Below, one piece after another: positions 2,072 to 28,252 of a DNA stretch of 33,756 nt. Made by a program: the position numbers and the translations under genes. Source of the DNA: a marine bacterium B5-7 (lineage in GTDB: Bacteria > Pseudomonadota > Gammaproteobacteria > Arenicellales > CAJQKF01); assembly GCA_021604525.1 (NCBI GenBank), contig BQJD01000039.1, positions 1-33,756 of the forward strand, given 5' to 3'. The stretch's first letter is position 1, and every line of letters begins with the position of its first letter. The notes beneath the pieces are model-generated. The model made no database searches. It saw only the letters and a program-made list of their open reading frames with translations, and was not told the origin of the DNA.

Positions 2072-3604
2072 TTACCGATTTCGATCATGAACACAACGGT
2101 TTTTGATAGCCGATTCGAGAGAGGATAAGCATAATTCGGTCACCGCATTACTCGCCTTGCGGGGGACCATAGACAAAGTTGTATCCTGTTGTTCCGGTTC
2201 ATCTGCAAACCAGATCCCACCCAGGCTAAGATACAAATCAACGCGTGCTTCATACAAGGACTGCTCCGCGAGAATTAGATTTTCTCTTTCTGTATCAAGA
2301 GCGCGCCGTGTTTCTAGCACTTTCAGAAGGGTTTCCAACCCCTGGCGATGCCGATTCTGCACGAGTTCATCCGATAGTCGAGCAGACTCCACAGCATCTC
2401 TCAATAGTCGGACTCGCGCTGAGTTTCCTGCCAGCTTGGCTAACGCAGTTTCAACCTCTGACAATGCGGCCAAGGCGGTTCGTGCGTATGCAAACCCTAG
2501 TTCATTAGCTTTAGCCCTTTGTAGTCTGAATTCATTACGCAACCGCCCCCCCTGGAACACTGGTTGTACTAATGACGCAAACAGGCTCGCTGTATAGTCA
2601 ACGAAATCGAATACCTGTCCGGGATAGTTGCTTGTGAATATCAGATTTGATCTGAGAGTTAGACCTGGAAACTGGCTCGCACGAGCGACGCCGACATCCT
2701 CCAATGCTGCACGATACTGCAACTCGGCAACAGCCACATCTGGTCGTCGTGTCAACAAACTGGCTGGCATGCCAATGGGTATGTCTGCATCACTAACGCT
2801 CGGCAGATCACCCTCAAAGGTCTTTGCCGTCACTCCCGGAAACCTGGCCAACTGACCATCGATTTCGAATAGCTGGATTGTTAACTGCGTTTCAAGGTCG
2901 GGAATATCAGCCAGTGCGGAGTCCAAATTTTGTCGTGCAATTTGGACATCGGTAGCCGACGTCAATTTCGAGCCGGTTCGATATTGGCCATCAGTGACAT
3001 TAAGTGTTGTTTGATAACTCTCTGCCGCCGAGCGAGCTAACCGAAGTCGGCGTTTCAGAGCTGCGGCAGCGAGATAGTTATTTGCAAGCGTTGCTATCTG
3101 TTGCTGTTCAAGTGCTGCATAGTCTGCTTCTGTAGCAGCAGCGGTCAATTCTGCAACACGCTGTGATGCACGTAGCCCACCAAATACATCGGTATCCAGA
3201 CTGGCATTCAGTCCGATTGAATAGCTATTGGACCAAGTGTTATTAGATTTGTATCTTAAAGCATTATTATTAAGCGTGACCTCCGGCCAACGGTTACCAC
3301 CTTTCAGCCTCGCGCTGATGCGAGTCTGCTCATTTCGTGAACGCGCTTCAACCAGGACAAGATTATGTTCACGTAGTTGGTTCACCCATTCGGACAATTC
3401 TTTACCACCCAACTCGCGCCACCATTCGTAGGGTTCGGAGATAGATGAGTCTGACATCACACCCGCGCCGCCATAATGGGACGACTCTGCAATACTAGTC
3501 ACTATCTGTGGTTCTTCAAATTGCGGCGTCATCGAACACGCCGGCAGAAAAAAGAACAAGACGGTGCTGGTGTACTTGAAGGGAGGGCAAACAGCGCATG
3601 TCAT
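2072..3604 (-). CDS. NodT-type outer-membrane efflux lipoprotein (TolC superfamily)
   Basis: It forms the outer-membrane channel of a tripartite efflux or secretion pump. With the ATG at 3604 (510 aa) the N-terminus is a lipoprotein signal with lipobox LPAC (Cys23 would be acylated); the longer start at 3661 would add 19 residues ahead of the signal. The family hallmark LLTRRPDVAVAELQ, followed by GVARASQFPGLTL, is present near residue 290, and two long alpha-helical repeats flank it, as in OEP proteins. The C-terminal tail (from about DEPEQQDTTLS) is longer than usual. No periplasmic adaptor (HlyD/MacA type) or RND pump is adjacent. The gene lies downstream of an ABC exporter and an SPFH protein, which suggests these form one export module. 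The start choice is moderately sure; the family is clear. Confidence 0.88.
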   Translation of the reverse strand: MTCAVCPPFKYTSTVLFFFLPACSMTPQFEEPQIVTSIAESSHYGGAGVMSDSSISEPYEWWRELGGKELSEWVNQLREHNLVLVEARSRNEQTRISARLKGGNRWPEVTLNNNALRYKSNNTWSNSYSIGLNASLDTDVFGGLRASQRVAELTAAATEADYAALEQQQIATLANNYLAAAALKRRLRLARSAAESYQTTLNVTDGQYRTGSKLTSATDVQIARQNLDSALADIPDLETQLTIQLFEIDGQLARFPGVTAKTFEGDLPSVSDADIPIGMPASLLTRRPDVAVAELQYRAALEDVGVARASQFPGLTLRSNLIFTSNYPGQVFDFVDYTASLFASLVQPVFQGGRLRNEFRLQRAKANELGFAYARTALAALSEVETALAKLAGNSARVRLLRDAVESARLSDELVQNRHRQGLETLLKVLETRRALDTERENLILAEQSLYEARVDLYLSLGGIWFADEPEQQDTTLSMVPRKASNAVTELCLSSLESAIKNRCVHDRNR

Positions 3605-3769
3605 TCTGGTCGATAAAATCAGGATGATGTTCTTTTCGATATTGACTATGATCTGATACATTGGGAGAACATGCTGAACGCATCACAACCAGAAATGATA
3701 AAGCATACCTCTAGAAAGATCTCCAAGTTGCCCGATTAAATTGACTTTCTTTATCTGCATATTTATATG

Positions 3770-4633
3770 TCATTTTGAACGTGAGCGGGGCTCAGCAGAG
3801 CCATCCAGAACCAGGGGCATGTTTTTCGGGTCACCGATCACAATGATCTTGCTGTTTTCAGAACCAGCCAGTTCATGCAACGCTTTTATCTGCAGCCATT
3901 CGAGCAGTTTCGGGGTCAAGTTGCTACCGACTATATTCTGATATTCCTCAATGCCCTCCGCCTCGATTTTCATTCGCCGGGATTCGTCTTCCTGCTTTTT
4001 GATAAGATATTGGTAAGCCAATGCGTCCTGTTGAAAGTTGAGTTTTCTCTCTATGGCTGCATTGATAGATTCGGGCATGCCGACATTTTCAATGAGCACC
4101 TGTTCGACGACGAAAGGCAGTCCCTGTATCTCCTTCGTTGCCTCCGTAAGTATGGCATCATGTAATGTACTCCGCGCTGTCGTATATAGTTCCTCTGGGG
4201 CATAGTTGCCAATCACCTGCCGCACGGATGAAAATATCGTGGGGACAATGATCGTATCTATATAGTTGTTCCCGATGTGAGTGGCCAGTTCCTTCAATTC
4301 AGTTTTCCTGGGATGGAAAATCGCACTGACTCGCAAAGATATGAACAGACCATCGTTACTAAGGGCTTCTACATCGAGTGTCCGCTTCTGCTTGGTAACG
4401 TCATAAATGTACATCTTGTTCCATGGCGCAAGAAAGTAAAGACCCTCTTCATGGATTTCTTCCGGCAGCGGTTCGGAGGAGAGAGATCTGAATAACAATC
4501 CCGCTTGTCCTGGATAAACATAAATGAACATGGAAGGCGACAAGTAGACAATCAGGAAAAAGACCACAAACAGTACTGACACGATACTGAGCCTGTAGCG
4601 TTTGATCACGGATACGGGGTTCATGTTCTTCAC
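3770..4633 (-). CDS. SPFH/prohibitin-like membrane protein
   Basis: The protein has one N-terminal membrane segment (residues ~13-35, LSIVSVLFVVFFLIVYLSP) followed by an SPFH (band 7) domain. Its recognisable parts are YPGQAGLLFR, the segment GLYFLAPWNKMYIYDVTKQ, TLDVEALSNDGLFISLRVSAIF, and a helical region ending FQQDALAYQYLIKKQEDESRRMKIEAEGI-like coiled coil. SPFH proteins oligomerise into membrane scaffolds or cap proteases and transporters. The gene begins with GTG at 4633, overlapping the upstream ABC transporter stop (GTGA, 4630-4633), so the two are translationally coupled; an in-frame ATG at 4624 is an alternative start. Tight coupling to an exporter is unusual for this family and suggests it organises or stabilises the pump. 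No NfeD partner is present. Confidence 0.85.
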   Translation of the reverse strand: MKNMNPVSVIKRYRLSIVSVLFVVFFLIVYLSPSMFIYVYPGQAGLLFRSLSSEPLPEEIHEEGLYFLAPWNKMYIYDVTKQKRTLDVEALSNDGLFISLRVSAIFHPRKTELKELATHIGNNYIDTIIVPTIFSSVRQVIGNYAPEELYTTARSTLHDAILTEATKEIQGLPFVVEQVLIENVGMPESINAAIERKLNFQQDALAYQYLIKKQEDESRRMKIEAEGIEEYQNIVGSNLTPKLLEWLQIKALHELAGSENSKIIVIGDPKNMPLVLDGSAEPRSRSK

Positions 4634-6267
4634 TCTACAATGCGTCCTGAATCTAGTTTAACTGTGCGGTCGGCGACACCGAAGTATTGCTGATCGTGGG
4701 ATATCGCAATAACGGTTTTGCCTGATTTCCTGAGATTCGGAAGATAGGTTTGATAGTAGAATTGCCGGAACTCAGGGTCAAGATCGGCCGCCACTTCATC
4801 TAACACAAGGAAAGGACTGTCATCCATATGTGCGCACGCCAGCGCCAGGCGCTTGCATTGCCCTGCGGACAGATTCAGATTTTGAAACCGTTCTCCATCC
4901 CAGGCCACGCGATCCCGCAGGCCCATGATATCCAGCAACACGCTCAACTTTTCCTCATCCACCTTACGCTGGCCGTATAACCGGTCGAACAAATAGTAGT
5001 CTGGGAAAACAACGGAAAATAAGTCCCTGTAATTGGGATAATCCTGTTCCTCCATACCACGCCCGCCCAGATACAGCATTCCGGAATCCGGGCGATAAAG
5101 ACCTGTCAAAAGTTTCAAGAGCGTAGTCTTTCCCGCGCCATTGCTACCAACTATAAATACTAATTCGCCCGGTTTAAGGTCCAACGAAACAGGGCCTAAA
5201 GTAAAATCATCAACGTGATCCGAGTGTTGATAGGTAAAGCTCACATTATCAAGCTGTATTGACAGATCGGAAGCCGGAAGCTTTGAGTAATCCACGACAA
5301 TGCCTGTATTACTTTCTCGGGCGATATCCAACTCCTGATCCAGGGAATGCAGTTTATCCAGTGCTCTTTCCGCCTTGAGTATAAGAGGAATCGATTGGAC
5401 GATGCGGGTCATGGAGCCGTAGGTAAACAACAACACCGCAGCCACCTTAAGAATATCCGCATTGCTCATGTCGCCCACTTGCGGCAACAAAAAAATCATC
5501 GAGGTTACGATTAGGTAGTAGTAGGACTGTATAAACACCATGTTGGCGGATAACTTCTTTTCGGCACGAATGCTGGCTTTCTCGGCCTGTCGAGCTTCCG
5601 GCCGGATATAGTCATTGTAGAGGGTCGCGCTCTTGTTTCTGGCTACTTTGAGTTCCTTGAACCCTTCCAGAAAATACTTGAACCGATCTTTAAACTGATG
5701 ATCGTGTAAGCTTGCTTTGTTGATCAGTTCGCTTACCTTCTGAAGGTTCGTGCGGTAAACAAAGTATCCGAACAAATAGAAAACCACGATGATAGCGATG
5801 GCAACAATTGATATGGAGGCTATATAAATCCCGGATACGAGAATCATGATAAACGCAGCGCCCACGTTGGCCAGATTTTTTGATGCTTCGAGAACGATGT
5901 CCGTGCTGGTATGGAGTGTCGAATAAATTCGTGATTTACCCATTTCCTCGAAATCGACCAAATGCATGCGCCTGAGCTTGTCGGCCACATCCAGGTAAGC
6001 GGCGAAGATGACGCGCTCCGTCAGGGCGATTGTACGTGATGTCGAATAATGACTCGCCAGACTGTAGCCACCCAGAAGAAGCAGAAACATGAGCAGGTAA
6101 CGCAGATTGAGATCACTATTTTGCATAGCACTTGCCGCACCGTTTATTACGATGATCATTCCCCCCTGCAGCAAACCCGCCAACAACGCCGCGGATACCA
6201 CGCGCACACAGGTTGTCTTGTCCTGCCTGACCAGAAGTCGATATAACCCGAAGCGGTTAAGATCCAT
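4630..6267 (-). CDS. Cyclic-peptide-type ABC exporter (fused membrane and ATPase domains)
   Basis: This half-transporter (545 aa from the ATG at 6267) has a six-helix membrane domain (residues ~20-300) and a C-terminal ATPase. Walker A is GSNGAGKTT (374-382), the signature is the variant LSAGQ (466-470), Walker B is FLVLDE (486-491), and the switch region is ISHDQQYF. The LSAGQ.KRLAL signature and DEVAADLDPEFR sequence resemble the SyrD/PvdE cyclic-peptide exporter family. A homodimer would export a peptide or siderophore-like product across the inner membrane. ATG 6267 is preferred because GGGA lies 7 nt upstream; a TTG at 6282 would add five residues. No NRPS or precursor gene is in this neighbourhood, so the cargo is unknown. 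It is the first gene of the run that continues into the SPFH and NodT genes. Confidence 0.87.
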   Translation of the reverse strand: MDLNRFGLYRLLVRQDKTTCVRVVSAALLAGLLQGGMIIVINGAASAMQNSDLNLRYLLMFLLLLGGYSLASHYSTSRTIALTERVIFAAYLDVADKLRRMHLVDFEEMGKSRIYSTLHTSTDIVLEASKNLANVGAAFIMILVSGIYIASISIVAIAIIVVFYLFGYFVYRTNLQKVSELINKASLHDHQFKDRFKYFLEGFKELKVARNKSATLYNDYIRPEARQAEKASIRAEKKLSANMVFIQSYYYLIVTSMIFLLPQVGDMSNADILKVAAVLLFTYGSMTRIVQSIPLILKAERALDKLHSLDQELDIARESNTGIVVDYSKLPASDLSIQLDNVSFTYQHSDHVDDFTLGPVSLDLKPGELVFIVGSNGAGKTTLLKLLTGLYRPDSGMLYLGGRGMEEQDYPNYRDLFSVVFPDYYLFDRLYGQRKVDEEKLSVLLDIMGLRDRVAWDGERFQNLNLSAGQCKRLALACAHMDDSPFLVLDEVAADLDPEFRQFYYQTYLPNLRKSGKTVIAISHDQQYFGVADRTVKLDSGRIVE

Positions 6268-6405
6268 AGACAATCCCGTCAATTACCGAGGCGTGAGTCT
6301 TTATCAGTAGCGTCTCTGTTACCGGGTCTTGTAAAAAATTAACACGATGCCGTTGTGTCCATACGTCCGCCATCAGGTTCGAGCCTCGGTAGTATAATAG
6401 CTGAT

Positions 6406-7182
6406 ATGGCGACGACCATTCACCTGAGCAGCGTAGTATCGAAAAAAGCAGAGATCGGGGACGGCTGCATTATCGAACCTTTCGTGGTTATCGACAATGG
6501 AGCTGTCATCAGCAATGACAACCGTATCGGACACGGCACACACATCTGTTCGAACAGCCGGATTGGACATGGCAACATATTTACCAGCCATTGCTGTGTT
6601 GGTTATGAACCTCAGAATATCCGGGTCGACAGGGACAACCGTGGAGGCGTTGCCATCGGAAACACGAATACCTTCCGTGAGTTCTGCACGGTGCATCGCA
6701 GCACTGAACGCGAAGCCACTCTGGTCGGTAACGACAATTTGTTCATGGTCAACAGTCATATTGCTCATGATTGCGTAGTCGGAGATCGCGTAACCATGAC
6801 CAACAACTCGGTTCTTGCCGGTTTCGTTGATGTTGACGACCATGCCGTTCTGTCGGCCTTTGTGGCGATACATCAGTTCTGCCGTGTCGGAAGATATGCA
6901 ATGGTCGGCGCTTATACCAAGATTGTGCAGGGTGTTGTCCCCTTTACTTTAGTGGATGGCAACCCGGCGCGGGTCTACGGGACCAATACCGTCGGGTTGC
7001 GACGTGCATCTTTCTCGAGCCTGGAAAGAAGCACCATCAAGAAAGCGATTAAAACCGTATACGGCGGGTTAGGCAACATCAAAGGCGCCCTTGAAACGCT
7101 CGAAGCCGAACACGCTGACGATGATATGATCATGGAGATAGTCCGATTCATTGCCGAGTCGAAACGCGGCATTATTCGATAA
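6406..7182 (+). CDS. lpxA: LpxA-type acyl-ACP:UDP-N-acetylglucosamine O-acyltransferase
   Basis: It is expected to transfer a 3-hydroxyacyl chain from ACP to UDP-GlcNAc, the first step of lipid A synthesis in the cytoplasm. From the ATG at 6406 it is 258 aa, close to the ~262 aa of E. coli LpxA. Hexapeptide repeats of the left-handed beta helix run through residues ~15-185, the catalytic histidine is in HIAHDC (His121, equivalent to E. coli His125), and the C-terminal helical bundle is present. A GTG at 6355 in the same frame would add 17 residues without similarity to the family. It is alone, not in the usual lpxD-fabZ-lpxA-lpxB operon, so it may be a second copy or a paralogue acting on another sugar nucleotide. 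It is divergent from the ABC exporter, and its 3' end overlaps the next gene by 11 bp. Confidence 0.88.
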   Translation: MATTIHLSSVVSKKAEIGDGCIIEPFVVIDNGAVISNDNRIGHGTHICSNSRIGHGNIFTSHCCVGYEPQNIRVDRDNRGGVAIGNTNTFREFCTVHRSTEREATLVGNDNLFMVNSHIAHDCVVGDRVTMTNNSVLAGFVDVDDHAVLSAFVAIHQFCRVGRYAMVGAYTKIVQGVVPFTLVDGNPARVYGTNTVGLRRASFSSLERSTIKKAIKTVYGGLGNIKGALETLEAEHADDDMIMEIVRFIAESKRGIIR

Positions 7183-8929
7183 GCCTCAGCACTGTGGCCA
7201 GTGATCTTTGCTTCGCTTTCAGCGGTGGAGTGTCGTTCAGCGTGCGACGATAGATTCGGCCAATTCGCCAATGAAGGTAGTTGAGATATGTCCGCTCTAT
7301 GACGTAGTTTGTCGTGGACTGAATCCAAAACATCCATGCTGCCTTGATCGGGAAACCCGAGCGTTTCTGAGTGCGGACTTTCCTGAGCCCCAAGCCAAAT
7401 TCAATCGGATGGATGTCATACCAGAAAAGGGACAACCTGTAACCGACCATGCGTGAGAACACAAGGCGCGTGTCCAGCCCGTCATTCTGGGCCGCCCGAA
7501 GGTATCCCGGGATGCGATGATAGGCAACAAGGGAGCGCCAGGCTCTGCGGTAAGCACGTTTCCATTGACGGCTACTCATTGTCGGGTGTGTCTTGACCGG
7601 ATGATGCAAGGTGTAGCGATTAAGATCGGGATCCAACCACTCACCCGTACTCAATGCATCACGGTGGTTGGCAGAGCCTGGCAGGTGAGTCATGTAGAAG
7701 AACATCACATCATCGAATTGAATCTCATCCAATAAATAACGAACATCCCTGTCGATAGACTCCGGCGTATCTGCCGAGAAGCCCAGAATATAGCCCGCTT
7801 GAACATGGATGCCTGCTTTGCGCCATGCTCGAAACATATCGCGGTACTGTTCGGCACGGTTTTGCTTCTTGACGATTTCCTGCAGATTCTCCTCATTAAC
7901 CGATTCAACGCCAACAAAAACGAAGTGAACCCCGGCGGCGGCACAAAGCTCTACAAATCCTTTCTTGCGATAGCTTGGAACATCGACCTGAATGAGCAGA
8001 CCGAACTCTCTTTCCGAATGACGTCTCAACTCGGCGATAGCGTTCAGCAGTTCACGCCAGTTGGCCAGACGGGAAAAATTGTCATCGGTCACCTGAAAAA
8101 AACGGACGCCCTGTTGAAGATAGACGCGCATAGTAGCGATCACGTCTTCAACACGTCGCTGTCGACCTCCTTTCCCATGTACATTGATGATGGTGCAAAA
8201 TGAGCAGACGAAGGGACAGCCACGCCCAGCATCGAATGGCGCGACGCCACGGGTCTTCTTCAGCAATGTGTTAGGCAAGCTGGGTCCGGGTTCGCCTTCC
8301 AGACCAGGCGGCTCGGATGGACGCGCGTATATGGACTTGAGATTGCCGTCATACGCATCTCGCAGGACCTCATCCAGTCGGCCGCCTTCCGCTTCGCCAC
8401 AGAATAGTGAAACACCAAGGTCCATCGCCTCGTGCAGTTCCGCTGTGGGTTGCGCCAACATGGCGAGTACGCCTGTGACGTGAAAGCCACCCATACACAC
8501 CGGCACACTGGCGTTTCTCAATTGTCTGGCGAGATCCAGTGCACGCGGATACTGGTGGCTTTGAACACCGGTCAGGGCGACCATTCCACGCCGCCGTGAT
8601 CCGCCGATTCGTTCAATGATTTCGTCACTGGGAATCGGATCCGTTGATTCATCCTGCACAACGACTTCTATCGTGACGTGCTGCCCCAGTACTTTGCGTC
8701 GGGCACAGTCAAGCGCCAATCCATTCAGGCACGCCAGGGTGTTGTTCGACAAAGGGGGCGCATCCCAGAAAATGACATAGCCGTCTTCTGTGTAGTGGGA
8801 CGGTGCGATCAGATAGAGGTAAAAAATCGTCGATTCAGAGAGCGCGCTGCGCACCTCGTTGGGTGCGTCATTATTGATACGGTTACTCATGGGACGATTC
8901 CGGGATGCCGTCGAGATGTAACGGATCAT
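7172..8929 (-). CDS. Radical SAM protein with N-terminal B12-binding-like domain
   Basis: The protein (585 aa) has a cobalamin-binding-like region at ~80-190 (VALTGVQSH, VPVCMGGFHVTG) and a radical SAM domain from ~230 with the CxxxCxxC motif at Cys238/Cys242/Cys245 in GRGCPFVCSFC. Further family features are FFQVTDDNFSR, FVFVGVESVNEENL and a GYILGFSADTPESI segment. This is the layout of B12-dependent radical SAM enzymes (BchE/HpnP-like superfamily), which methylate or rearrange lipids, cofactors or peptides. The canonical DxHxxG of base-off B12 domains is not obvious. The substrate is unknown; being beside an LpxA-type gene it could modify a lipid. The start may be the ATG at 8929 or the one at 8890 (MSNRINND); no clear ribosome binding site decides it. 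Confidence 0.87.
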   Translation of the reverse strand: MIRYISTASRNRPMSNRINNDAPNEVRSALSESTIFYLYLIAPSHYTEDGYVIFWDAPPLSNNTLACLNGLALDCARRKVLGQHVTIEVVVQDESTDPIPSDEIIERIGGSRRRGMVALTGVQSHQYPRALDLARQLRNASVPVCMGGFHVTGVLAMLAQPTAELHEAMDLGVSLFCGEAEGGRLDEVLRDAYDGNLKSIYARPSEPPGLEGEPGPSLPNTLLKKTRGVAPFDAGRGCPFVCSFCTIINVHGKGGRQRRVEDVIATMRVYLQQGVRFFQVTDDNFSRLANWRELLNAIAELRRHSEREFGLLIQVDVPSYRKKGFVELCAAAGVHFVFVGVESVNEENLQEIVKKQNRAEQYRDMFRAWRKAGIHVQAGYILGFSADTPESIDRDVRYLLDEIQFDDVMFFYMTHLPGSANHRDALSTGEWLDPDLNRYTLHHPVKTHPTMSSRQWKRAYRRAWRSLVAYHRIPGYLRAAQNDGLDTRLVFSRMVGYRLSLFWYDIHPIEFGLGLRKVRTQKRSGFPIKAAWMFWIQSTTNYVIERTYLNYLHWRIGRIYRRTLNDTPPLKAKQRSLATVLRLIE

Positions 8930-23014: not shown

Positions 23015-23505
23015 GGTAGTAAGCGCTCGCTTAACAACGTGGTTTATACGCCGACTCAAACTGGAATCATATATTTATTCGGCAAAAGTCGAACGATATT
23101 GATCAGATTATTATCTGGTGAATTTCAAGAAATATTCGTAGCAAATAGTAATGAATTTCAGATAAAACAGCAAAAAACATCTTCGAAATTTCTGGAATAT
23201 ATACGAAGATTCATGACTCGCTAGAAATAGTGAACTAGCAATTACAGGTCATATATGGGATCCAGAGTGTTTATTACTGATTTCAAAAGTAAGAACTGAA
23301 ATACTCAGGTTCACCTCAGCGACATTATTCAACTTCCGGTCGGACATCAATGTCATTTCGTCTGAAAGAATGATACTGATATAGACATGAATCGATACGG
23401 TAGTCTAGTCTGTCTAGTGACAAAGACGGTCAACCTGGTGGCATTTGTGCAATGACCTGGCCGTTTGTCAAAGTTTTGTACAACTATTAATGGCAATGGA
23501 GTGAA
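23015..23505. other. Divergent intergenic region before the YcaO locus (491 bp)
   Basis: This AT-rich stretch must hold the promoters for the DUF2058 gene and for the YcaO locus. A possible -35 TTGTCA (about 23466) and AT-rich TATTAAT (about 23485) lie before the 81-aa gene, but the spacing (~14 bp) is short. A short direct repeat GTCTAGT occurs twice near 23403-23418. No coding frame is convincing. Confidence 0.3.
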
Positions 23506-23508
23506 ATG

Positions 23509-23754
23509 ATGAAAAGTAATAAATCTGGTCCCGATCCTTATCTTGCCGATCATGGTGATGAACTGGTTGCAGTTACTCCTGGTGAAAAAGGTGAAATCAT
23601 CAAGATCACGGAACGTGGCGCAATAAAGGAGTTACGAGAACTCATTGCCACGCGTAGGGAGATTGGCAGGAAGATTAGCAGTAAGCTGGCTGATCACGGA
23701 ATGATCTCGGCTGCCAGTATTGATGCAACGCATGTAGATAAAGGCCCTGATTGA
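23509..23754 (+). CDS. Small hydrophilic protein, candidate YcaO/TfuA substrate or precursor
   Basis: An 81-aa charged protein that I do not recognise. The second of two adjacent ATGs (23509) is preferred because GGAG lies 7 nt upstream (the ATG at 23506 would be 4 nt). An acidic/basic helical middle (ERGAIKELRELIATRREIGR) is followed by a Ser/Thr/Ala/Gly tail ending ISAASIDATHVDKGPD. There is no cysteine, no signal peptide and no membrane segment. It ends 110 bp before the YcaO gene, on the same strand. In RiPP pathways a short gene just upstream of YcaO often encodes the precursor, with an N-terminal leader and a C-terminal core; here the tail would be the core. No Cys means that thiazole formation is impossible, but oxazoline or backbone thioamide formation would be. 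It may instead be an unrelated small protein. Confidence 0.6.
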   Translation: MKSNKSGPDPYLADHGDELVAVTPGEKGEIIKITERGAIKELRELIATRREIGRKISSKLADHGMISAASIDATHVDKGPD

Positions 23755-23864
23755 TTGTTCGACGCTTTGATCGGATCAGAAGCTGACAATAAGTGAACAT
23801 GTTACATGTCGTGATTCGAAGTATTGTCGGATTTTATAATAACTAAAAAGTTTGCGATGGAACT

Positions 23865-25118
23865 TTGTCCGATCTTTATTCACGAACAGTGAACCACGCC
23901 TGTACAGCGTTGGATCTTGGGGGAACTGTTCGTGATGTCGAGCCTGGAGAAACGCTTCGTATGGCGGAAGCAGTTGGTGCTGAACTTGGTGTCACCAGGC
24001 TCGCCAATGTAACAGGCATGGATAATGTAGGTGTGCCTGTATGGGTTGCGATTCGACCGCTTTCTTACTCGCTTACCGTATCCCAAGGAAAAGGTCTTAC
24101 GAACGACCTTGCCAAAGTATCTGCTCTAATGGAATCTATTGAGCTGGCTCATGCTGAACAGTTCGAGAGTTTGGGTCCGTACAAATCATTTGCAGCATAC
24201 ATAAATGATAATCGCTACATGCCTCCACACCAGCTACCGCTTCGGGCCGGAGTCGAATTAGCGGATGTGTCCGATGTTAATTGGATTCAATGCCGAACAC
24301 TTGATGGTTGTACTGAGAGATACATTCCCAGTGACCTCTTTCGGCTGGATTTTCGTTTCGGCGATAATAAAGGTCCGTTTCTTGGGACTTCGAATGGACT
24401 TGCGTCCGGGAACAGTTTTGAAGAAGCGGTATTGCATGGCGTTTGTGAAGTCATAGAAAGAGATCAAGTTAGCTTTTCAATTGTTGGAAACAGCCTCGGA
24501 GGCGATTCATTTAACACGGAACTTGATGTGCATTTACTCGCTGATCCAGATCTTCAGTGGTTGTGTGAGAAGATCGAAACGGCTGGTCTGTTACTAAGAG
24601 TCTGGTATGCGACGACCAATATCGATATTCCAACATTTATCGCACTGGTTCACGGGCCCGATCAAGAATCGCTGTATCCAATTCGCGCCAAAGGGTTTGG
24701 AAGTCACCCGCTAAAAAAAATTGCACTCTGCAGGGCGATAACAGAGGCTTTGCAAAGCAGGTTGACATATATCTCCGGATCTCGTGATGACCGCTTGTGG
24801 AAAAGTTATTCAGAATCAAGATCAAGAAATGTTTCTGACGAGTTTATTACTCCTTCCAGTGTATCGCTCACTAATTTCAATAATGTTCCCGAGTATCAGG
24901 GAGAGATTGATGTTCGCACCATGCTCGACTGGGTACTGGAGAAAAATAAAAATGCTGGTCTTGAGGATGCGCTAATTGTTGATTTAACCAGAAATGATTT
25001 TAAACTGCCTGTCGTGTGGGTATTTATTCCTGAGTTGGAACACTATGGTCTTCAGCCGGACTATATACCGGGGCGGCGGATGAGTGAATTTATTAAAAAG
25101 ATTCCTGTGCTCCAATGA
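23865..25118 (+). CDS. YcaO domain enzyme (ATP-dependent amide backbone modification)
   Basis: YcaO enzymes activate peptide-backbone amides with ATP to form azolines, amidines or, with TfuA, thioamides. The 417-aa protein shows the ATP/Mg sites of active members: SALMESIELAHAEQ (SxxMExxE), the segment GLASGNSFEEAVLHGVCEVIERDQ, and RAITEALQSRLTYISGSRDD. The N-terminal TVRDVEPGETL and the segment LANVTGMDNVGVPVWVAIRP are also typical. The start is a TTG at 23865, the first start codon in this frame; the nearby ATG at 23857 is out of frame. No C-terminal PxPxP tail, no fused E1-like (cyclodehydratase C) partner and no leader-binding domain are seen. Its stop overlaps the TfuA start (ATGA, 25115-25118), so the two are coupled. 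This organisation fits a stand-alone YcaO-TfuA pair. Confidence 0.88.
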   Translation: MSDLYSRTVNHACTALDLGGTVRDVEPGETLRMAEAVGAELGVTRLANVTGMDNVGVPVWVAIRPLSYSLTVSQGKGLTNDLAKVSALMESIELAHAEQFESLGPYKSFAAYINDNRYMPPHQLPLRAGVELADVSDVNWIQCRTLDGCTERYIPSDLFRLDFRFGDNKGPFLGTSNGLASGNSFEEAVLHGVCEVIERDQVSFSIVGNSLGGDSFNTELDVHLLADPDLQWLCEKIETAGLLLRVWYATTNIDIPTFIALVHGPDQESLYPIRAKGFGSHPLKKIALCRAITEALQSRLTYISGSRDDRLWKSYSESRSRNVSDEFITPSSVSLTNFNNVPEYQGEIDVRTMLDWVLEKNKNAGLEDALIVDLTRNDFKLPVVWVFIPELEHYGLQPDYIPGRRMSEFIKKIPVLQ

Positions 25119-25861
25119 AGAGTTGCGTATTTGCTGGGCCAACTCTCTACCAACGTGAAACATATGGATTGTCTGTATTGCCACCGGCACGGCTTGGTTC
25201 AGCTTTCTGGGCATGGCGAAATGGTTATCACAGAATCGCGATAGTTGATGGCTACTTCGGCTCCATACCTTCCATTTGGCACAAAGAACTCCTGTATGTC
25301 ATATCGCAAGGTGTCCAGGTATGGGGTGCGGGTAGCATCGGTGCTCTTAGAGCCGCTGAGTTATGGAAGTACGGAATGGGTGGCGTGGGCAAGATTTGGC
25401 GGCTGTATAAAAAAGGTGTCATTACCGATGATGATGAAGTATGTGTCACACATGCACCTCAATATATGGACTACCAACCACTAACCGAAGCCTTGGTGAA
25501 TGTACGCTTGTCGGTGCGTGCACTACGTCGATATGGAATGATCACAGTGCAACAGGAATCAATTCTGATTGAAACATTTAAGAATCTGCATTTTTCTGAG
25601 AGATCTAATAGAAATCTTCGCCTGTGTTTTAGTCGAGTCCTTGGATCAAATACTCATTTAAAGGTGTGGAAAGTCTATTCACGCATATCGAGGGATCAGA
25701 AGGGTATGGATGCAGATAGCCTCGTACGTGGTTTGGCGAATGAATCTTTGCCATCGATGCCGAAGCAGGATTGGGTCTTTCCCGAAACTCTGCATTGGAG
25801 AAGGCAATTTGTTGAGAGACTTGGTGATCTTCCAGACGGCGACAAGGATCCATTCTTTTGA
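25115..25861 (+). CDS. tfuA: TfuA family protein, YcaO partner
   Basis: TfuA-like proteins partner YcaO in trifolitoxin synthesis and in thioamidation of archaeal McrA, where they are thought to deliver sulfide. The protein (248 aa) has the family core: FAGPTLYQRE near the N-terminus, IAIVDGYFGSIPSIWHKELL, VWGAGSIGALRAAEL and the following GMGGVGKIW. The C-terminal ~100 residues are more variable. It is coupled to the YcaO gene by an ATGA overlap. The pair must be co-produced, and the presence of TfuA favours a thioamide or related sulfur-containing product over simple azoline formation; that last point is inference. Confidence 0.88.
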   Translation: MKSCVFAGPTLYQRETYGLSVLPPARLGSAFWAWRNGYHRIAIVDGYFGSIPSIWHKELLYVISQGVQVWGAGSIGALRAAELWKYGMGGVGKIWRLYKKGVITDDDEVCVTHAPQYMDYQPLTEALVNVRLSVRALRRYGMITVQQESILIETFKNLHFSERSNRNLRLCFSRVLGSNTHLKVWKVYSRISRDQKGMDADSLVRGLANESLPSMPKQDWVFPETLHWRRQFVERLGDLPDGDKDPFF

Positions 25862-25891: not shown

Positions 25892-26716
25892 ATGTATCAG
25901 GAAATCTGTAAGCCAACTGACAATTACTATACTCACCTGAAGAAACTTTTTCAGGCACGTAGATATGATGACATGCTTTCACTGGTAACGGGCATAACTC
26001 CCACAAGCCCGTACTACACGATTTCCAAGGCATGGGAAATAGTTACTACAGGCAAAATATCTGATTCATCAGGCCTCGGTGAATTAATTGACTACGATAG
26101 GGATATCATGGTGTTTGATACAGGCCAGGGAGAAATTCTCTCCAAGCGCGATGATCTGGATAATGAGACCAGACGTATCTGGCACTCGATGGAATGTATC
26201 AAACCGGATTCCAGAATGCCGTATCGAAAGGGCAAGAAAACCAGGGATATATTCGAAGATGAGAGTTTTAATACGGAAACGATCTTTGAAGTATTCTCCA
26301 CATGCTTTGCAGCATTTGTTTGTCATATTCGTCAGGATGCAGTGTTAAGGTCCAGTAAGAATGCCTATCTGCAAGGATGGCAGAATGTTGTTGCTCCAAC
26401 GGGTTCTTTAGGTGCCCACTTTCATCCAGGTGCCTGGATAAGCCTCGTGTATTATCCCCCAAGAGATGGAATCGTTAAGAACAATAATAGTAGTATCGTA
26501 TTCGGATGTTATCCAGAAGAAATGGGTGGTGGTGATGGAATAATGAAGCTGGAAGTTGAGGCAAAGGTAGGGCGCATCATAGTATTTCCAGCCTTCATGG
26601 GACACGCTGTTCGTGAACAAAACGCAAATGCATCAAGGGTCAGTTTGGCTGCGGATATTCGCTTTGCTTATACACAGCAAGATCTCACAGAGCATGCAGT
26701 GTTGCACACCTCCTGA
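25892..26716 (+). CDS. Putative 2OG-Fe(II) oxygenase (TIGR02466-like)
   Basis: The C-terminal third resembles the 2OG-Fe(II) oxygenase group 5: WQNVVAPTGSLGAHFHPGAW (residues ~165-185, likely first iron ligand), ISLVYYPP, then GRIIVFPAFMGHAVREQ (distal His) and ASRVSLAADIRF, with the Arg that would bind 2-oxoglutarate. The N-terminal 90 residues resemble TPR-like helical regions (DNYYTHLKKLFQARRYDDML). It is 274 aa and starts 30 bp after the TfuA gene, so it is probably in the same operon. In this setting it could hydroxylate the YcaO/TfuA substrate or an amino-acid building block. That function is not shown by sequence. No good ribosome binding site is visible before the ATG. Confidence 0.65.
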   Translation: MYQEICKPTDNYYTHLKKLFQARRYDDMLSLVTGITPTSPYYTISKAWEIVTTGKISDSSGLGELIDYDRDIMVFDTGQGEILSKRDDLDNETRRIWHSMECIKPDSRMPYRKGKKTRDIFEDESFNTETIFEVFSTCFAAFVCHIRQDAVLRSSKNAYLQGWQNVVAPTGSLGAHFHPGAWISLVYYPPRDGIVKNNNSSIVFGCYPEEMGGGDGIMKLEVEAKVGRIIVFPAFMGHAVREQNANASRVSLAADIRFAYTQQDLTEHAVLHTS

Positions 26717-26902: not shown

Positions 26903-28252
26903 ATGTCAAAATCTATTCAACAGCCGGAATATACTGAAGGCGATATCAATCTTTCGCCTCGCAGGCAAGAATGGACGAAGCAGAACATTGGAGAGGAAAC
27001 CACACAATTATTGGATGAGGATACGAAGTATTTTCTGCGCCAATCCTTGTCTACTCCGTGTTTGAATGCGATACGGGGGAGCAAGGGAATTTACCTGGAG
27101 GATTTCCAAGGCCGGATGATCATGGATTTCCATGGAAACAGCGTTCATCAGGTAGGTCATGGACATCCCCGTGTTATTGAAGCTATAAAAAAACAACTCG
27201 ATCAGATTCCATTTTGTCCACGACGTTACACTAATCAGATAGCAGTGGATCTGGCAAAGCGCCTGATTGACCTTGCTCCTGATGGTCTTAACAAGGTGTT
27301 GTTTTCTCCAGGTGGTACTTCAGCAATAGGCATGGCACTGAAGCTTGCCCGTTACGCGACCAATCGTTACAAAACCATATCGATGTGGGACAGTTTTCAT
27401 GGCGCATCACTGGATGCAATATCAATTGGCGGCGAGGCGCTGTTTCGTAAAGATATTGGGCCATTGTTACCGGGTTGCGAACACATACCACCGCCAATTC
27501 AGGGAAAGTGTCATTTCAACTGTAAAGACGAGGAGCATACCGGCTGTACTGACTACCTGGAATATTTGCTGAGCATGCATGGCGATGTCGCGGCAATCAT
27601 TGCTGAACCTATGCGGTGGACAACCGTCGAATTGCCGCCACTTGGATATTGGAAACGTGTTAGGGAGATATGCGATCGACACGGTGTGTTACTGATCTTT
27701 GATGAAATACCATCGGCACTAGGGCGAACCGGAAAGATGTTTGTTTGCGAACATTTTGATGTCGTGCCGGACATATTGGTGATTGGTAAAGGACTTGGCG
27801 GAGGTGTATTCCCAATGGCTGCCATGATTGCAAAGGAGGAACTGGATATTGTTGGCGACCGTGCTCTCGGCCACTATACTCATGAAAAAAGCTCGGTAGG
27901 TTGTGCAGCCGCCCTGGCTACCATCGATAGTATTCTCGAAGATGGTTTGATCGAGGCCGCGATAAACTTGGGTAATTATGCACTTGCACGCCTCTCGGAA
28001 ATGCAGACGCGTCTGCCACTTATCCATGATGTGCGTGGTCTTGGATTACATATTGGAATTGAGCTACGCCGAGACGGAATATCCGCTAACGATGAGGCCG
28101 ACGCAGTACTTTATCATTCCCTGTCTCGAGGACTTAGTTACAAGGTAGGTGGTGGTTGTGTGTTAACCCTGTGTCCACCAATGACAATTACACAGGATGA
28201 GCTTGACCGTGCCTTGAAAATTGTTGAAGAGGGTATCGTTTCAGTTAACTAA
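26903..28252 (+). CDS. Class III PLP-dependent enzyme, PbfA-like
   Basis: A 449-aa fold-type I PLP protein. Visible are the substrate-entrance segment DFHGNSVHQVGHGHPRVIEA, the PLP-phosphate loop GGTSAIGMALKLAR, the pyridine-N aspartate Asp267 in LLIFDEIPSALGRTG and the Schiff-base Lys296 in VIGKGLGGG. From memory of the family, the sequence around DFHGNSVHQ, MWDSFHGASLDAISIGGEAL and GPLLPGCEH resembles (R)-1-hydroxy-2-aminoethylphosphonate ammonia-lyase (PbfA), not ordinary ornithine or GABA aminotransferases. No other phosphonate gene is nearby, so either it acts on another amino compound or phosphonate genes lie elsewhere. AGGTG is 7 nt before the ATG. The 186-bp gap from the oxygenase gene leaves room for its own promoter. 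Confidence 0.75.
   Translation: MSKSIQQPEYTEGDINLSPRRQEWTKQNIGEETTQLLDEDTKYFLRQSLSTPCLNAIRGSKGIYLEDFQGRMIMDFHGNSVHQVGHGHPRVIEAIKKQLDQIPFCPRRYTNQIAVDLAKRLIDLAPDGLNKVLFSPGGTSAIGMALKLARYATNRYKTISMWDSFHGASLDAISIGGEALFRKDIGPLLPGCEHIPPPIQGKCHFNCKDEEHTGCTDYLEYLLSMHGDVAAIIAEPMRWTTVELPPLGYWKRVREICDRHGVLLIFDEIPSALGRTGKMFVCEHFDVVPDILVIGKGLGGGVFPMAAMIAKEELDIVGDRALGHYTHEKSSVGCAAALATIDSILEDGLIEAAINLGNYALARLSEMQTRLPLIHDVRGLGLHIGIELRRDGISANDEADAVLYHSLSRGLSYKVGGGCVLTLCPPMTITQDELDRALKIVEEGIVSVN

Follow-up and report, generated by a model that had tools for sequence, protein, structure and literature searches.

To our knowledge, the way in which YcaO/TfuA enzyme pairs recognise their substrates, and the residues that they thioamidate, are known in few cases only. 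Among the described systems, the thiovarsolin cluster of Streptomyces varsoviensis (VarA, VarY and VarT) is the closest worked example and resembles the locus studied here in that its YcaO and TfuA genes are clustered with a precursor gene; varA, varY and varT are sufficient for thioamide formation, and the YcaO/TfuA precursor family of the thiovarsolins ranges from members with no repeat to members with five (PMC6511847). Hundreds of TfuA-linked precursor families have already been predicted, and a genome-mining survey of TfuA-related RiPPs reports a very diverse set of 797 (PMC8120280). A pair that thioamidates a glycine of McrA (TIGR03266/NF033432; PMC5589413) provides the closest curated relatives of our YcaO and TfuA. 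Finally, the YcaO of E. coli is reported to recognise folded uL16 by its tertiary structure, and it thioamidates the backbone of this ribosomally made protein (PMC13063428).

The DNA that we analysed (hereafter the window) is a stretch of 33,756 nucleotides from the marine gammaproteobacterium B5-7. Like the TfuA-related RiPP clusters of the survey, it holds adjacent ycaO and tfuA genes with a small candidate precursor gene, and as in the thiovarsolin family, the candidate precursors of its clade include both non-repeating and multi-repeat C-termini. No sequence similarity to the thiovarsolin system was shown, however, and the tail of the window protein has neither a repeat nor the APR motif. 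The oxidative partner differs as well, being a 2OG-Fe(II) oxygenase in the window and the heme-oxygenase-like VarO in thiovarsolin biosynthesis. Unlike the survey's clusters, the window has a presumed strand-and-helix leader for which there is no Pfam or NCBIfam model. An identity as McrA-glycine thioamidation proteins was rejected, because the window YcaO and TfuA scored well below the equivalog cut-offs (204 bits against TIGR03266, cut-off 365; 144 bits against NF033432, cut-off 235); the neighbourhood, moreover, is that of a bacterial small-ORF operon. The E. coli enzyme shares the YcaO domain with the window but belongs to another YcaO subfamily, has no TfuA and acts on a ribosomal protein. 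Most likely, the small gene next to ycaO and tfuA in the window encodes a peptide that is modified by this enzyme pair, probably through introduction of sulfur into the peptide backbone.

The small gene and its neighbourhood

The preliminary description had proposed a Cys-free protein of 81 residues, encoded upstream of ycaO on the same strand, as a candidate substrate of YcaO/TfuA. The open reading frame at 23509-23754 (plus strand, like all the genes in this section for which we give a domain match) indeed has 81 codons and encodes neither Cys nor Gly-Gly, as had been claimed; it is separated by 110 nt from the TTG start of ycaO at 23865. The ribosome-binding site that had been judged good is a GGAG at 23498-23501, 7 nt upstream of the start codon at 23509, and an alternative in-frame ATG at 23506 would give a protein of 82 aa. 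The codon log-odds score of the frame was 0.18 per codon; 152 gene segments averaged 0.13, and 456 shadow-frame segments averaged -0.13. This score exceeds that of 88% of the accepted neighbouring-gene segments and was reached by none of the 456 shadow-frame segments. Since the frame uses codons in the manner of the accepted neighbouring genes, 23509-23754 is a real gene, beyond a chance ORF.

An AlphaFold2 model built from two sequences (pLDDT 72) predicted strands at residues 11-14, 19-23 and 29-33 (23539-23607), a helix at 36-62 (23614-23694) and a low-confidence tail at 63-81 (23695-23751). The helix, which had been assigned to the N-terminal part, is thus placed by the model in the middle of the protein, after three strands; the Ser/Thr/Ala/Gly enrichment noted for the tail is present, but mild. 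We found no Pfam or NCBIfam domain in the protein, no Nif11/NHLP leader-domain match in these collections, no GG cleavage motif, and no tandem repeat in the ORF or array near it. A possible stem-loop that had gone unremarked lies at 23783-23830 on the plus strand, followed by ATTTTATAAT, in the gap before ycaO; it may be an attenuator, is weak (z -2.27) and was not picked up by a terminator scan.

Downstream, ycaO (23865-25118) encodes an ATP-dependent peptide-backbone-activating enzyme with a full-length domain (PF02624, E 2.5e-64, profile positions 1-325 of 325). Its stop codon is overlapped by 4 nt by the start of tfuA (25115-25861), which encodes a short form of 248 aa (PF07812, E 9e-41); both domain matches lie far above the gathering scores. 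Starting 31 nt after tfuA, a 2OG-Fe(II) oxygenase gene (2OG-FeII_Oxy_5; 25892-26716; PF13759, E 1e-11) may encode a tailoring hydroxylase. The matches to this protein elsewhere, across 109 genomes of the order, were all weak and partial, and we found no relative of it at the two loci with the closest YcaO proteins among the matches listed, so that it would be at most a local tailoring step.

An azol(in)e-forming TOMM cluster of the SagB/C/D type was also considered and rejected: neither an E1-like/ocin-ThiF partner nor an azoline dehydrogenase was among the neighbouring genes scanned, the SagD model gave 92 bits (cut-off 219), and the small protein is Cys-free. No protease, exporter or immunity gene adjoins the operon. 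The next gene, at 26903-28252, encodes a PbfA-like enzyme of the class-III aminotransferase fold and exceeds the cut-off set by NCBI for (R)-1-hydroxy-2-aminoethylphosphonate ammonia-lyase (NF049939, 674 bits, cut-off 525), although we recognised no phosphonate gene next to it. Its membership of the cluster is doubtful given resident orthologues elsewhere in the genus and away from YcaO (58-65% identical in genomes G001, G002 and G022; 64-65% for the genus counterparts), and judging by these comparisons it is probably a resident gene outside the YcaO cluster. Some 15-19 kb upstream of the YcaO genes, the window also encodes an ABC exporter-like protein and a radical SAM (B12-binding-like) protein (4630-6282 and 7172-8929), which probably form a locus apart.

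Upstream genes of the closest YcaO relatives

When the genome collection was scanned with a profile, the best YcaO matches listed were those of locus L105, from Rhodospirillaceae bacterium R-7 (42% identity, E 8e-98), and locus L106, from a Burkholderiaceae MAG (41%, E 4e-94), while the remaining listed matches had at most 39% identity and E-values of 3e-71 or worse. In a tree of 101 YcaOs the window, L105 and L106 proteins formed one clade with 100% SH-aLRT and a long stem, which thus has at least three members among the matches listed. Their TfuAs are all short (243-248 aa), and those of L105 and L106 matched the window TfuA with E-values of 1e-71 and 1e-66, compared with 1e-42 or worse for all others. 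A YcaO profile found no further clade members in 385 and 300 genomes around L105 and L106 or in viral contigs, the next scores being 341 bits versus 750-768 bits within the clade. The window's own genome carries a second YcaO/TfuA pair, on contig C47; in the same tree its YcaO grouped with YcaOs from its own genus and order, which the window YcaO did not. At L105, tfuA is divergent from ycaO.

At both L105 and L106, the loci with the closest YcaO among the matches listed, a small Cys-free ORF lies immediately 5' of ycaO. That of L106 (7670-7933) encodes 87 aa; it is preceded by a ribosome-binding site of the GGAGG type and runs into the start of ycaO. When the 15,340 ORFs of all loci were compared, it and the window ORF were each other's best match, with E-values of 0.5 and 0.077 for the whole set, at 29% identity; 1 of 20,000 shuffles was as good, and the shuffle p was about 2e-4. 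These E-values alone would be insufficient, and the match is convincing because the best match of the whole ORF set falls at the syntenic place. The AlphaFold2 model of the L106 protein (pLDDT 79, two sequences) had the same topology as the window protein, with three strands, one 27-residue helix and a tail; neither model had a PDB match at E<=0.001. A chorismate-mutase-like match of the L106 helix (E 0.04) was far below the cut-off and was discarded. Identity between the two proteins is even along their length (strands 27%, helix 29%, tail 27%).

The L105 ORF (4979-5416; 145 aa) is preceded by GGAGG and ends 21 nt before ycaO. It consists of MRSLEELLHSRQKAGIAIHRALQ followed by nine units of 13 aa (ARDDDERAAVSVF), eight of which have the form ARDDDERAA[VLI][SA]VF; the last is divergent (ARSDDERAAIAH). 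Comparison of the units gave a pS of 0.50 and a pN of 0.03 (pN/pS 0.06), which indicates purifying selection and therefore a peptide that is kept while its codons drift. Its N-terminal helix resembles those of the window and L106 proteins (xLLxxRQKAGxxI). Against the L106 helix (LDLLKKRQKAGQQISKLL), 15 of 20,000 shuffles were as good, whereas the similarity to the window helix (LRELIATRREIGRKISSKL) was weaker (564 of 20,000). A profile of the window and L106 proteins ranked the L105 ORF second among all other ORFs, at E 1.0. Because the direct similarity is weak, the link between window and L105 rests on the L106 intermediate and on position. The homology spans about 20 residues; the L105 protein is without the strands, its C-terminus is entirely different, and no motif common to the window and L106 tails and the L105 repeats was found. 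By its sequence, the L105 layout of a helix and nine repeats is that of a classic multi-core precursor. Three similar-looking ORFs (3219-3911, 6689-7369 and 7521-8252), two of them confirmed as PAS_5, flank the nine-repeat cluster.

The preliminary description had also suggested comparing the small proteins of related clusters. This comparison yielded a whole-length relative in L106 and a helix with nine repeats in L105, but the pattern of a conserved leader and a variable tail was absent between window and L106. It had further named two outcomes that would speak against a precursor, a protein widespread in genomes without YcaO and a folded domain of known function. Neither occurred: our searches did not find the protein in places apart from YcaO, and it carries no domain of the public collections. 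HMMER searches of 100 relatives (among them two congeners and one member of the same family) gave no close homologue, and octapeptide scans of viral and genome contigs and tblastn of plasmids gave none that was convincing.

Role of the small protein

We consider it fairly probable that the 81-aa protein is a YcaO/TfuA precursor with a leader of strands and helix and a thioamidated core in its tail, perhaps hydroxylated by the 2OG-Fe(II) oxygenase. Its coding signal, its position 5' of ycaO-tfuA, the YcaO clade, the syntenic reciprocal match, the nine repeats of L105 and the thiovarsolin precedent all support this role. In such a mechanism, residues ~10-62 would form an integral leader for docking on YcaO and/or TfuA, with the helix as the presumed recognition element, and the flexible C-terminal tail would be the core. 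YcaO would phosphorylate the backbone amide oxygen with ATP and TfuA would help sulfur delivery, giving a thioamide in the tail, to which the oxygenase may add a hydroxyl group; the putative product would be released. In the L105 relative, a similar short helical leader would drive nine repeated cores. We infer a thioamide rather than an azoline as the likelier product because of the TfuA partner and because none of the three ORFs encodes Cys.

Several observations count against a precursor: the even conservation between window and L106, with no sharp contrast between leader and core; the weak direct similarity of the window and L105 ORFs, and the difference of their tails; the operon's want of an adjoining protease, exporter or immunity gene; and an oxygenase with no relative found at L105 or L106. 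The candidacy first proposed is supported by the Cys-free upstream ORFs and the L105 repeats. The even conservation leaves room for an adaptor or a folded substrate. RRE and PqqD-like domains have a winged-helix fold of three strands and three helices. The order of three strands and then a helix recalls RREs, and the protein could be a stand-alone adaptor, either such a leader-binding domain or a small YcaO/TfuA partner, with the true substrate encoded elsewhere. Foldseek placed CteB (5why) at rank 1 and TbiB1 (5v1u) at rank 18, neither significant, and TbiB1 and a lasso B1 protein appeared among the structural rows at Z 2.1 (best Z overall 3.3). We nevertheless regard an adaptor as rather unlikely, as one long helix is predicted and not three, no Pfam or NCBIfam RRE model matched, the L105 ORF bears nine repeats instead of strands, and we recognised no further small candidate substrate next to the genes of the window.

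It is quite unlikely that the protein is a small folded one carrying a permanent functional backbone thioamide, like the McrA glycine or ribosomal uL16, and is not cut to release a peptide. Such a role would agree with the McrA proteins being the nearest curated models, though below cut-off, with the reported action of E. coli YcaO on folded uL16 (PMC13063428), and with our seeing no leader cleavage site, protease or exporter. The nine tandem 13-aa repeats of L105, however, fit a multi-core peptide and not a single folded protein, and the window tail was predicted with low confidence. That the ORF is an unrelated gene lying upstream of ycaO by chance would accord with the 110-nt gap, its possible stem-loop and the weak similarity to the L105 and L106 ORFs, but is very improbable, as its reciprocal best match sits at the same place in L106, one of the two nearest YcaOs among the matches listed.

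If the small protein is a precursor, it belongs to a small precursor family that has no public model and was previously unmodelled. It is possible, if somewhat doubtful, that the three loci represent a separate YcaO/TfuA lineage in at least three proteobacterial groups, with a leader made up of three strands plus an xLLxxRQKxGxxI helix and with Cys-free precursors that range between the lone tail of window and L106 and the nine 13-residue cores of L105, the window tail being thioamidated and 2OG-hydroxylated. One YcaO clade with both kinds of Cys-free precursor would be a clean system, in which the helix common to them predicts the docking element and the L105 repeats predict the core, which makes the precursor role directly testable. 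Its confirmation would mean that little-studied proteobacteria contribute a new family of precursors and, possibly, a peptide with both thioamide and hydroxyl groups.

Small ORFs and repeat proteins at other YcaO/TfuA loci

Small ORFs upstream of ycaO that look alike by eye (a hairpin, then a helix) occur in four distant groups of loci (L116/L130/L135/L153/L155; L103/L104/L172/L177/L184; L124/L126; L107/L114/L125/L131). HHalign E-values were 0.12-0.22 for all four groups and, in the two groups compared with column-shuffled controls, 25-29 of 200 shuffles were as good, so that we claim no homology. In several clusters of the order, tfuA is followed by a third gene for a protein of about 420 aa with the motif GTRFxLFPQ (L020 9105-10376, which had no Pfam match at E<=0.001, and L090 2720-3982). 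Repeat proteins with differing units (DxxAGRMAIEA, GAKIDPTQ, AARGAM, QSRAMM) are encoded upstream of ycaO at L113 (7311-7790) and L141 (7475-7876), and elsewhere in the locus at L142 (8190-9125) and L156 (11210-12022).

About 28 of the approximately 101 YcaO-TfuA loci encode, usually 2-3 kb from ycaO, a protein with a common N-terminal domain of about 130 aa, for which the members tested gave no Pfam or NCBIfam match. Examples are L020 10445-11176 (contig C47 of the window's own genome, G000), L101 3107-3610, L154 5248-6111, L118 5629-6312 and L094 9887-10381, among others. Most of these proteins end in short tandem repeats (VSGAR, SRMAMA, MNARG, SGGKAY, SGKRV), and from their sequences they look like a large, apparently unmodelled family of multi-core precursors.
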